Assembly: GCA_022843445.1 (NCBI GenBank)
Contig: JALHNS010000022.1
Span: forward strand, 1-34,228
Reading direction: 5' to 3'
DNA length: 34,228 bases
DNA from: Gemmata sp.
Lineage (GTDB): Bacteria > Planctomycetota > Planctomycetia > Gemmatales > Gemmataceae
The notes beneath the pieces are model-generated. The model saw only the letters and a program-made list of their open reading frames with translations. It did no database searches and was not told where the DNA came from. Shown here piece after piece: positions 30,793 to 34,159 of the stretch (positions within the stretch are counted from its first letter, which is position 1; every line of letters starts with the position of its first letter). A program made the position numbers and the translations under genes.

Positions 30793-32046
30793 CTACACCG
30801 GCGTGCCGGTCACGCCGCACACTTCCTTCAGCTTCCCGAAGGCCACCACGGTTTGCTTGTCGATCGGGTACGCGTCGAGGTACGCGCGCACGTCCGCGAG
30901 CGTGACCGCCTCGAAGTTCGCCAACTCGGTGTCCACGTCGCGGTACTCGCCGGTGTAGGTCCACGCGGCGGCGATGGCCTGCATGCGGCCCATCGGGCGC
31001 TCGCTGCCGCGCACCACGCGCGACAGAATCTTGCTCTTCGCTTGGTGCAGTTCTTCGGCCGTGATGCCTCCGGCTTGCACTTCGGCGAGCACCTGTTGCG
31101 CGCGCGCGATGTTGTCTTCGGTCGCTTCCGGCTCGCCGCTCAGCGAGACGTACACCGCGCCGTTGCCGTCGTTCTCCACGTAGCTGCAATCGGCCGAGTC
31201 CGCGTGCCCGGGGTCGACCAGCGCCCAGTACAGGCGGCTGCCGCCGTCGTCGCCGACCGCCAGCGCGAGTGCGTCGGCCGCGTACCGCAGGCGCGAGTGC
31301 GCCGGCGGCCCGCCGCACATCATCATCGCGTACTCCTGTTGCACCTTCTCGCGCGTGAGCACGTGTAGCGCCGGTTCGCCGCGCCACTCCGTGCGCTGGC
31401 TGCGGCCCACGGTGTCGGTGTTCCAGTGCGCGCACTTCGCGGCGATCAGTTCCACGAACCGCGGCCAGTCGAAGTTGCCCGCGACCGAAACGACGATGTT
31501 GTTCGCGGCGTAGCGGCGGGTGAAGTAGCCGCGCATCTGCTCGGGCGTGAGCGCCCCGACGCTCTCTTTGGTGCCGAGCACCGAGTTGCCGAGCGGGTGG
31601 TTCGCGTAGTAGAGCCGCCGCGCGCGGTCCCACGCCACGGATCCGGGCTGGTCCTCGTACATCTCGATTTCTTCGAGAATCACCTTCTTTTCCATGTCGA
31701 AGTCGTCGGCGCGCAAGCTGGGGCGCAGGATGTCCGCGAGGATGTCCACGCCCTGCGACAGGTACTCCGGCAGCAGCGCCGCGTAGTACACCGTGTTCTC
31801 TTCGCTCGTGTACGCGTTGTAGTTCGCGCCGATGCGGTCGAAGTCGAGGTTCACGTCCTCGGCGGAGCGGCGCTCGGTGCCCTTGAACATCATGTGTTCG
31901 AGGAAGTGCGACACGCCGGATTCCGCGGGCGTTTCGTCCCGCGACCCGGTGCGCACGAAGAACCCGACCGCGACCGACCGCGCCGCCGGGCTGGTTTCCC
32001 CGATCAGTTGCAGCCCGTTGGGCAGCGTGTGCGAGTGGAACGGCAT
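30793..32046 (-). CDS. M16 peptidase, catalytic subunit (HFLEH)
   Basis: A 417-residue insulinase/pitrilysin-fold zinc peptidase of the M16B (processing-peptidase) type. The zinc motif is HFLEH at residues 47-51 (GVSHFLEHMMFKGTERRS), with the third ligand among Glu125, Glu126 and Glu128 in VILEEIEMYEDQP about 75 residues later. The second half domain (from about 210) keeps only a degenerate Arg/Tyr motif (GDDGGSRLYWALVDPG). That pattern fits the catalytic half of a heterodimer, with the zinc-less M16 protein at 32305-33540 as partner. No signal peptide is visible. ATG 32046 (MPFHSHTLPNGLQL) is the family start; GAGGA and AAGG lie upstream. Confidence 0.93.
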   Translation of the reverse strand: MPFHSHTLPNGLQLIGETSPAARSVAVGFFVRTGSRDETPAESGVSHFLEHMMFKGTERRSAEDVNLDFDRIGANYNAYTSEENTVYYAALLPEYLSQGVDILADILRPSLRADDFDMEKKVILEEIEMYEDQPGSVAWDRARRLYYANHPLGNSVLGTKESVGALTPEQMRGYFTRRYAANNIVVSVAGNFDWPRFVELIAAKCAHWNTDTVGRSQRTEWRGEPALHVLTREKVQQEYAMMMCGGPPAHSRLRYAADALALAVGDDGGSRLYWALVDPGHADSADCSYVENDGNGAVYVSLSGEPEATEDNIARAQQVLAEVQAGGITAEELHQAKSKILSRVVRGSERPMGRMQAIAAAWTYTGEYRDVDTELANFEAVTLADVRAYLDAYPIDKQTVVAFGKLKEVCGVTGTPV

Positions 32047-32060
32047 CGCCTTCTGTCCTC

Positions 32061-32201
32061 TTAAGCGTACCCGCGGAACCAGAACACCCACGCCAGCGCC
32101 GCGGTCAGCGCAACGATCACGCCCGCGATGTACGCGAACACCAAATTCGCCACGGCCTCGTCCGGCTCGCGCGCTACCGATTCTGTGTGCTCTTCGGTCA
32201 T
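32061..32201 (-). CDS. 46-residue single-pass membrane protein in the M16 operon
   Basis: ATG 32201 to TAA 32061 encodes 46 residues: a charged N-terminus (MTEEHTESVAREPDEAVANL) followed by one hydrophobic helix (VFAYIAGVIVALTAALAWVFWF) and a short basic end RGYA. It lies 14 bases before the catalytic M16 gene on the same strand, inside the operon. The hydrophobic segment with N-terminal acidic residues and a terminal Arg fits a tail-anchored or N-in type II small protein. A role as membrane tether for the M16 complex is inference. It may have been missed by gene finders because of size. Confidence 0.72.
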   Translation of the reverse strand: MTEEHTESVAREPDEAVANLVFAYIAGVIVALTAALAWVFWFRGYA

Positions 32202-32215
32202 GATGGACTCAAGTG

Positions 32216-32307
32216 TAGGTCGCTCGCTCCGCGAGCGACCATTCGCGGTGCGAGTGAGTTAAGAGTGATTGCACGCGCCAGTGGTCGCTCTCTCCGCGAG
32301 CGACCTA
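32216..32307. repeat. 92-bp inverted-repeat element with TAGGTCGCTCGC ends
   Basis: Left arm 32216-32241 and right arm 32282-32307 are inverted repeats matching over 12 and 8 bases, with a different 6-base core. The left arm is itself a perfect hairpin GGTCGCTCGC-TCC-GCGAGCGACC. The TAG stop of the upstream M16 gene (read on the minus strand, 32307-32305) is the outer end of the right arm. It separates the two M16 genes from the small membrane gene and may affect relative expression. Confidence 0.65.
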
Positions 32308-33540
32308 CTCTTTCACTTCCAGCGGTTTCGGGCCGAGCGTGACCAGTGTTACGTTCTTCACCGGGTGGCGCTCCAAGTGCGCGAGAATCTTCGCCGGCGT
32401 CAGCCCGTCGATGATCGCCTGAATCTCGTCGAACGAGCGCACGCGGTTCAGGTAGTACCAGTCGGTGGCGATGGCCCCGGCTCGCGCGGAAGTCGATTCT
32501 TCCTGCATGATGAGCGATGACTTCAGCCCGGCTTTCACGCGGTCCAGTTCGTCGTCGCTGATGCCGTCCTTGAGGCGGCGCAGTTCGTTCAGCGTCACGT
32601 CCAGCGTTTCCTGCGCGCGCTCGGCCCGCGTGCCGGCGTAGGCGAGCACGCTGCCCTGAGTCTTCAGCGATTCGTGCGTCGCGTACACGCTGTAGCACAG
32701 GCCCCGCTTCTCGCGCACTTCGGTGAACAGACGCGAACTCATGCCCCCGCTCAGCACGCTCACCGCGGCGCGCGCGTGGTAGAAGTCCGGGTCCGTGATC
32801 GTCACGCTCGGGTACGCGAGCGCGATCTGCGTTTGCGACGTGTCTTTGTGGATGTGTGCCGACTGCGGCACGTGCGGTTGCGGGGTCGCGTCGTCGGTCG
32901 CGCCGGGCTTCCAGTCGCCGAACAACCGGCCCACTTGCTCCTTCAGCGGTTCCCACTCGACGTTCCCGGCGACGGAGAGGATCGTTCCGTTCGGCCGGAA
33001 CCGCGAAGCGTGGACCGCGCGCACCGCGCCGATGGTGAGCGCCTCGAGTTCGGCCACGGTGCCGCGCCGGTCCTTGTTCATCGGCGGCGGGTAGTACCGC
33101 TTGCGCAGTTCCACCATCACCTTCGATTGCGGCGCGTCTTCGAGGCTCTGAATGTCTTGAATCGCCAGCGCGACAACCGGTTCGAGTTCCTCTTCCGGCA
33201 GGTGCGGGCGCAGCAGAATGTCGGCGTAAATGTCGAGCGCCGCGGGCACGTTGCGGGCGAGGGTGGACCCCCAGAATCGCATGTTCACCGCGCCGACGCT
33301 CTCGTCCGAATCGACGCCGAGGTTGTCGAGCGCCAGCGACAGTTCCCGGCTGCCGCGCGCGCCGGCCCCGCGGGTGATGAGGCCCGCGAGCACGCTCGCG
33401 GCGCCGCCGTGCCCGGCGGGGTCGAACGCGCAGCCGGCCGGAACGAGAAAGTTGAACGCGGCCGAGCGGACGTGGTCCATGCGCTCCGCGAGCAGCACAA
33501 GCCCGTTGGCGAACGTGTGCTGGTAAACCTGCTGTCCCAC
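32305..33540 (-). CDS. M16 peptidase-like subunit lacking the zinc motif (RY subunit)
   Basis: A 411-residue M16-fold protein. At the place of HxxEH it reads AGHGGAASVLAGLITRGAG, so it has no zinc site and should not cleave alone. The second half keeps the Arg/Tyr motif SSRLFTEVREKRGLCYSVYA, which in the MPP-like and Sphingomonas M16B heterodimers is supplied by the non-catalytic partner. The protein therefore most likely pairs with the HFLEH subunit at 30793-32046 (inference from established M16B pairs). Start: GTG 33540 with AAAGG at 8 bases. An ATG at 33576, 1 base past the stop of the upstream gene, is an alternative coupled start that would add 12 residues. Confidence 0.88.
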   Translation of the reverse strand: MGQQVYQHTFANGLVLLAERMDHVRSAAFNFLVPAGCAFDPAGHGGAASVLAGLITRGAGARGSRELSLALDNLGVDSDESVGAVNMRFWGSTLARNVPAALDIYADILLRPHLPEEELEPVVALAIQDIQSLEDAPQSKVMVELRKRYYPPPMNKDRRGTVAELEALTIGAVRAVHASRFRPNGTILSVAGNVEWEPLKEQVGRLFGDWKPGATDDATPQPHVPQSAHIHKDTSQTQIALAYPSVTITDPDFYHARAAVSVLSGGMSSRLFTEVREKRGLCYSVYATHESLKTQGSVLAYAGTRAERAQETLDVTLNELRRLKDGISDDELDRVKAGLKSSLIMQEESTSARAGAIATDWYYLNRVRSFDEIQAIIDGLTPAKILAHLERHPVKNVTLVTLGPKPLEVKE

Positions 33541-33577
33541 GCGAGGCACCTTTCGTGATGAGCGCTTTGCGGCCATT

Positions 33578-34159
33578 CTACGGAGGTGAGTGCCACAACC
33601 CAACGGCGAGCGCGGCCCGGTCGGGCAGTTCCACCGCGCGGTACAGCACCTTCGCCGCGCGGAACCCCAGCGACCGGTACAACCGAACCGCGGGGTCGTT
33701 CGTCGCGGTCACTTCGAGGAACGCCCGCGGGAGCCGCGCCTCCGCGAACCCGTGCAGGGCCATTAGCAGCAGCGCGCGGCCGAGGCCGAGGCCGCGGCAC
33801 TCCGGCACCACGCCGAGGTTTTGGATGCCGCCGTGGCCCGCGTCGTCGCGCAAGCCCTGTACGGTGCCGGCGCAGCCGTCCGGCCCGACCACGAGCCACG
33901 TGGCCTGCGGCACGAACCCGACGCGAAAGCGGATCGCGCCCATCAGGTTGTGACAGCCGGCGCGCGTGCCGAGGCTGGGGAACACGAGCGCGTCCTCGTG
34001 CCCGCGGAAGCTGTTGAACTTGGTTTCGGCGTGCAGGTCGAGCAGCGAATCGTCCCACGGGAGCCACTCGAAGCCCGCGGGCAGCGCGGGCACCGGCGGC
34101 AGCGGGTGCCGGAGCGACAGTTCCATGCGGTGCCGCTTGAAGTACTTCACGGTGCGCAT
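33578..34159 (-). CDS. GNAT acetyltransferase, planctomycete RimI-like
   Basis: A 193-residue GNAT-family protein. Motif A is GGIQNLGVVPECRGLGLGRALLLMALHGF, with R-G-L-G-L-G-R binding acetyl-CoA. Motif B is TNDPAVRLYRSLGFRAAKVLYRAVELP. The N-terminal part begins MRTVKYFKRHRMELSLRHPLPP and contains HAETKFNSFRGHEDALVFPSLG, a segment seen in a planctomycete group of these enzymes. ATG 34159 is chosen: it follows the preceding gene's stop by 9 bases, and the basic N-terminus is conserved in character. Acceptor unknown. It heads the M16 operon with the truncated gene upstream. Confidence 0.87.
   Translation of the reverse strand: MRTVKYFKRHRMELSLRHPLPPVPALPAGFEWLPWDDSLLDLHAETKFNSFRGHEDALVFPSLGTRAGCHNLMGAIRFRVGFVPQATWLVVGPDGCAGTVQGLRDDAGHGGIQNLGVVPECRGLGLGRALLLMALHGFAEARLPRAFLEVTATNDPAVRLYRSLGFRAAKVLYRAVELPDRAALAVGLWHSPP

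Follow-up and report, generated by a model that had tools for sequence, protein, structure and literature searches.

Proteases of the M16B type that work as heterodimers carry a signature combining an HxxEH and an R/Y motif (excerpts of PMC12731061 and PMC8960859). Two pairs described in these excerpts, TTHA1264/TTHA1265 and SPH2681/SPH2682, resemble the one analyzed here in consisting of two chains, each of some 44-48 kDa; the genes of the TTHA pair are neighbours, and the SPH pair splits HxxEH and R/Y between its chains in the same manner. A small membrane protein goes unmentioned for either pair in the excerpts of the two papers, whereas one is conserved in the clade described below. Mitochondrial processing peptidase (MPP) and the core proteins of the bc1 complex are likewise M16B pairs, with yeast MPP carrying HFLEH (excerpt of PMC12731061). 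The biological role of bacterial M16B proteases has been called unclear, or difficult to categorize (excerpts of PMC8960859 and PMC12731061).

Among NCBIfam models, those of Bacillus subtilis YmfF and YmfH come nearest to the two subunits studied here, which we call INA (YfmF_fam, 2.9e-22) and ACT (YfmH_fam, 3.7e-31). The likeness does not extend to membership, however, since scores fall far below the cut-offs of the corresponding equivalogs (NF047422, 79.1 against 285 for INA; NF047421, 108.8 against 250 for ACT). We take YmfF and YmfH to be of the M16B type and know of no protein beside them that is similar to SM, the small protein of this study. A membrane complex with small single-pass subunits carries the bc1 core proteins; the parallel with SM is one of analogy only, no PDB chain matching the SM profile better than at E 0.72.

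The DNA analyzed, referred to as the window, is a stretch of 34,228 nucleotides forming one contig of a 7.39-Mb assembly from the Gemmata group. We found no report of an M16B pair accompanied by a small membrane protein in the open-access literature searched, which leaves the unpublished status of this pairing unproven. A clade in which the protease has an extra, selected membrane partner would offer a way into the question of where an M16B enzyme acts and what it acts upon.

An M16B pair with a small ORF between its genes

The genes are transcribed from the minus strand in the order GNAT, INA, SM and ACT (Table 1; for the flanking genes, only long ORFs were listed). As listed, the ORF of ACT has 432 aa and an earlier start, GTG 32091, in place of which the ATG start was taken; alternative starts for INA are GTG 33540 and TTG 33603.

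Table 1. Features of the INA-SM-ACT locus (window coordinates)
Feature	Position	Strand	Remarks
ACT, M16B subunit bearing the zinc motif HFLEH, 417 aa	30793..32046	-	ATG start
SM, 46 aa, a single helix predicted at residues 13-43	32061..32201	-	ATG start; 14 nt before ACT
INA, second M16B subunit, having the R/Y motif (SRLFTEVREKRGLCY) and no HxxEH	32305..33576	-	ATG start
REPIN-like REP doublet with GTAG tags, separating INA from SM	32215..32308	.	tag holds the INA stop
GNAT-family acetyltransferase, next gene upstream of INA	33578..34159	-	

Both Pfam M16 domains score above their cut-offs (22.3 for PF00675, 23 for PF05193) in both subunits, as is typical of M16B heterodimers. Matches in ACT are to PF00675 (4.6e-37, 127.6 bits) and PF05193 (1.5e-20, 74.3 bits); those in INA are to PF05193 (2.5e-35, 122.4 bits) and PF00675 (5.9e-7, 29.9 bits). 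The HFLEH of ACT is at residue 47, with a candidate third-ligand Glu at 119-131, and no R/Y motif is found in this chain; INA has an R/Y motif at residue 281 and no HxxEH. The same division holds in the loci examined. HxxEH is present in 123 of 123 ACT sequences, 122 of which have a Glu 68-80 positions after it, and in only one of 106 INA sequences. The latter, from a locus with an INA-ACT gap of about 20 nt (L072), is an artefact of an alignment that ran beyond the INA stop (2577) into ACT in the same frame. Conversely, a fixed R/Y pattern occurs in 97 of the 106 INA and in none of the 123 ACT sequences; five of the nine INA that lack it show a variant and four do not. These data bear out the first-pass annotation, which had read the locus as a split M16 pair, with HFLEH and a degenerate Arg/Tyr motif in one chain, the reverse in the other, and a 46-residue ORF in between: all three ORFs lie there, on the minus strand. 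ACT and INA have the usual M16B heterodimer signature, and the pair itself is ordinary. The same genome encodes another M16 protein, whose two halves share a single open frame of 945 codons (C415:2010-3791).

By the hydropathy measure, neither M16 subunit has a segment of transmembrane strength. The best 19-residue mean is at most 1.84 in the 106 INA and 1.74 in the 123 ACT sequences, against 1.99-2.62 in 23 SM sequences; no built-in anchor is seen on this measure in the M16 proteins of lineages devoid of SM.

Conservation and coding potential of SM

Genomes of 95 Gemmataceae were searched with the single SM sequence and then with a profile of 24 members. Strong matches (E<=2e-20) were obtained in 24 of them: 18 of the 19 genomes of the window's genus (g1), both genomes of g32 and four of the six of g37. 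The remaining matches are weak, with E values from 0.004 to 0.5. When 297 genomes of the class were searched, strong matches were again confined to g1, g32 and g37, with five weak ones (E 0.004-0.009) in four further genomes; weak matches outside the three genera (E 0.004-0.5) were treated as chance. Scanning 84,980 named species for the peptide pattern WV[FY][WYF][FY]RGY gave 15 loci, all within the g1 and g37 set already found; two of these records carry the names Singulisphaera and Isosphaera, yet are the same g1/g37 loci.

In a comparison of 18 genus members (35 aligned codons, 153 pairs), in-frame pN/pS is 0.40; of the five alternative frames, one gives 0.67 and the remaining four 1.5-1.8. 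Residues E12, D14, V28, W38, R43 and G44 are identical in all 24 members, and the C-terminal residues form the most constant part of the protein. An AlphaFold2 model built from 15 sequences consists of one helix (13-43; mean pLDDT 84). On the grounds of codon statistics and position, SM is a genuine conserved protein-coding gene, and a noncoding or chance ORF is ruled out. The first-pass annotation had called the product a single-pass protein and made its case depend on conservation and purifying selection in relatives; a conserved protein with one predicted helix, encoded in 24 genomes and showing a pN/pS of 0.40 among 18 genus members, agrees with both points.

When the window SM was used as query, nothing scored above cut-off in Pfam (best EssA, E 0.01, 16.1 of 24.1 bits) or in NCBIfam (MmpA, E 0.61, 10.3 of 32 bits). 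Running all 24 members against Pfam gave a best E of 0.0057 (DUF5654), with no family recurring in more than two of the 24. As far as these profile and sequence comparisons go, SM adds a family of small proteins for which Pfam, NCBIfam and the PDB sequences searched offer no match above cut-off.

Charge is unevenly distributed along the protein. The N-terminal tail has a mean net charge of -2.1 (range -5 to +1) and the C-terminal tail one of +1 in 24 of 24 members. According to the positive-inside rule, the positively charged tail is on the cytosolic side; the charge distribution therefore suggests that SM is oriented N-out, C-in, with the RGYA tail in the cytosol beside the M16 proteins. Conservation along the helix is not significantly one-sided (p=0.064).

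The slot between INA and ACT

Of the 24 loci with a strong SM match, 23 have the order INA-SM-ACT. With start codons picked by rule, SM begins between -4 and +12 nt from the INA stop in 14 of 17 g1 loci, and the INA stop and SM start overlap in an ATGA in L010, L013 and L021. Spacing from SM to ACT ranges from 11 to 193 nt (23 loci). Three g1 loci depart from this, among them the window, its INA-SM gap reaching 103 nt because the GTAG-tagged REP doublet sits there.

All six genomes of genus g37 have a further hydrophobic ORF, SM2 (EPATSFKWVI..GVVVW.LGA), after INA and before ACT (L034, L035, L024, L025, L027 and L028), with a GTGA overlap at the INA/SM2 junction of L034. An SM2 profile gave nine matches at E<=0.01 in the 95 Gemmataceae genomes, the six from g37 being strong (E<=3e-20) and the three others weak (0.004-0.008). 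Median pN and pS are 0.18 and 0.50 in frame, against 0.24/0.28 and 0.31/0.16 in the shifted frames. SM2 could be a paralogue of SM: aligned by hhalign, the two reach a probability of 79.5, a value obtained between short hydrophobic profiles. Four of the six SM2 genomes also carry SM; the two others, G087 and G089, keep SM2 and the M16 pair. Altogether, the slot holds SM, SM2 or both in 25 of the 25 clade loci that have both M16 genes on the contig (23 with SM, two with SM2 only).

Distribution of SM and origin of the arrangement

ACT is detected (E<=1e-60) in 247 of 258 genomes of the class. Of the Gemmataceae genomes, 84 have ACT, and 83 of their loci were examined (a partial one, in G050, was left out). 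Fifty-six of the Gemmataceae loci are outside the clade, 47 with INA upstream of ACT and nine without. An SM-like ORF between INA and ACT is found in none of the 47; L057 and L075, which belong to this group, have weak hydrophobic frames (1.55 and 1.61) that differ from SM in sequence. Among the nine, L038, L064 and L084 show hydrophobic frames that are not SM-like; a 41-aa ORF preceding ACT at L038 was found, in 297 genomes, only in G005, which contains this locus. Outside the family, 40 loci were hand-picked, not drawn at random, from 186 non-Gemmataceae genomes with ACT, and scanned for frames of at least 22 codons with a 19-residue hydropathy over 1.5. No small hydrophobic ORF separates INA from ACT in any of the 34 loci with INA upstream, and one of the six without it, L160, has two hydrophobic frames. 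A general role of SM as M16 partner in planctomycetes is ruled out for the loci examined (0/47 and 0/34). Among the planctomycetes searched, SM is, judging from these matches, specific to the Gemmata clade, that is, to Gemmata and two neighbouring genera.

In an ACT tree of 92 rows, nine of them from the 40 loci of other families, a single branch, 27 rows in size, contains every carrier of SM or SM2; its support is moderate (88/85, under the 95/80 mark of the tool). This branch comprises 24 genomes with SM, G087 and G089 with SM2 only, and G018, where SM was not seen; the genome of G018 is 82% complete, with the contig ending 260 bp from ACT. If G018 represents an assembly gap, the pattern can be accounted for by a single gain and a single loss of SM. 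Within the stretches fetched, the GNAT gene is also upstream in many relatives that have no SM, and for this reason GNAT-INA-ACT looks like the older unit.

Possible roles of SM

Our first choice, which we hold tentatively, is that SM is a membrane microprotein working with the M16B heterodimer and docking the protease at the membrane, in line with the tether suggested by the first-pass annotation. We prefer it because the slot is always filled, the junction with INA is tight and the protease has no membrane segment of its own. In the simplest case, the INA-ACT operon would have acquired SM a single time, on the stem leading to the Gemmata clade; through the tight or overlapping junctions, SM would be made together with INA. 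Inserted in the membrane, as we infer, it would probably act with an otherwise soluble heterodimer by docking it on the cytoplasmic face, the contact being most likely the conserved C-terminal RGYA tail (Arg-Gly invariant, Tyr-Ala nearly so). Indirect support comes from B. subtilis, whose inner-spore-membrane proteome is reported to include YmfF, YmfH and the M16B-type protein MlpA (excerpt of PMC13393411). Counting against docking, the available surface would be small, about four cytosolic residues under the predicted topology, conservation is not significantly one-sided along the helix, and the branch uniting the carriers has moderate support only.

The filled-slot pattern speaks for docking, as does the retention of SM2 in the SM-less G087 and G089. 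Other observations count against it and favor an alternative that we consider almost as probable: SM could be an independent small membrane protein, such as a subunit or regulator of another complex, that uses the M16 operon for its expression only. This reading comes so close because M16 pairs devoid of SM are found elsewhere and because SM, for its part, can occur by itself. The 47 and 34 outside loci have an M16 pair and no SM-like ORF; G087 and G089 lack SM and retain the pair; and no matched family links SM to proteases. Furthermore, the three genes are on separate contigs in G017, with INA on C2, ACT on C350 and SM on C425, which is 4,382 bp long and has no M16 gene. SM can, it follows, persist away from the M16 pair, unless C425, in what is a fragmented assembly, is a foreign contig. 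Against independence stand the 23 of 24 strong loci that hold SM in the slot, three with its start overlapping the INA stop, and the 25 intact clade loci in which the slot is never empty.

Docking by SM could be part of a wider scheme in which the M16B protease acquired dedicated single-pass membrane microproteins that recruit it to a membrane of Gemmata cells, namely SM, joined in the same slot of one genus by SM2; we regard this broader proposal as rather doubtful. If true, it would amount to an adaptor-plus-peptidasome arrangement, which is absent from the literature searched. Gemmata is known for its elaborate internal membranes, and a membrane-docking microprotein limited to this clade would be a directly testable element of its cell biology.

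It is improbable that SM is a substrate, namely a short peptide precursor trimmed by the M16B pair, as class III lanthipeptides are by such pairs. M16B pairs do process short peptides (excerpts of PMC8960859 and PMC12731061), and the 46-residue ORF is located between the subunit genes; however, a hydrophobic helix spanning residues 13-43 is unlike a leader followed by a variable core, and it is the C-terminal end that varies least. Very little can be said for the idea that the ORF acts through its translation, coupling ribosomes from INA to ACT to set the subunit ratio while the peptide does little: the ATGA overlaps and the short distances from INA to SM fit it, but residue-level conservation (pN/pS 0.40, with W38, R43 and G44 invariant), the variable SM-ACT spacing and the survival of SM off the operon in G017 do not.

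The REP doublet and a larger gene in the slot

GTAG REPs have been reported in Planctomycetes (excerpt of PMC3733652). In the window, INA ends in a TAG stop (32305-32307) that is part of a REP tag; at this place 19 of 23 loci have TGA, including 15 of 17 in the genus. The 23-bp REP core occurs 31 times in the genome, against 0 for the pattern read backwards. Both cores of the window doublet match the same strand, with the GTAG tags inverted, and at three other sites in the genome the cores are 64-65 nt apart on opposite strands. Two matches to the Y1 transposase family (PF01797) are present, at C241:298-633 (L199) and C142:9017-9304 (L200). The 2,133-bp stretch around the better one (L199) contains no REP unit, and no link is claimed between the Y1 transposase and mobilization of the REPs.

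In two genomes from another family of the order, whose loci are among the 34 with INA upstream, the space between INA and ACT is occupied by a gene for a polytopic membrane protein of about 730-755 residues (L159, 397-2592; L161, 314-2587; coordinates in ACT orientation), presumably spermidine-synthase-like by our reading of its sequence.
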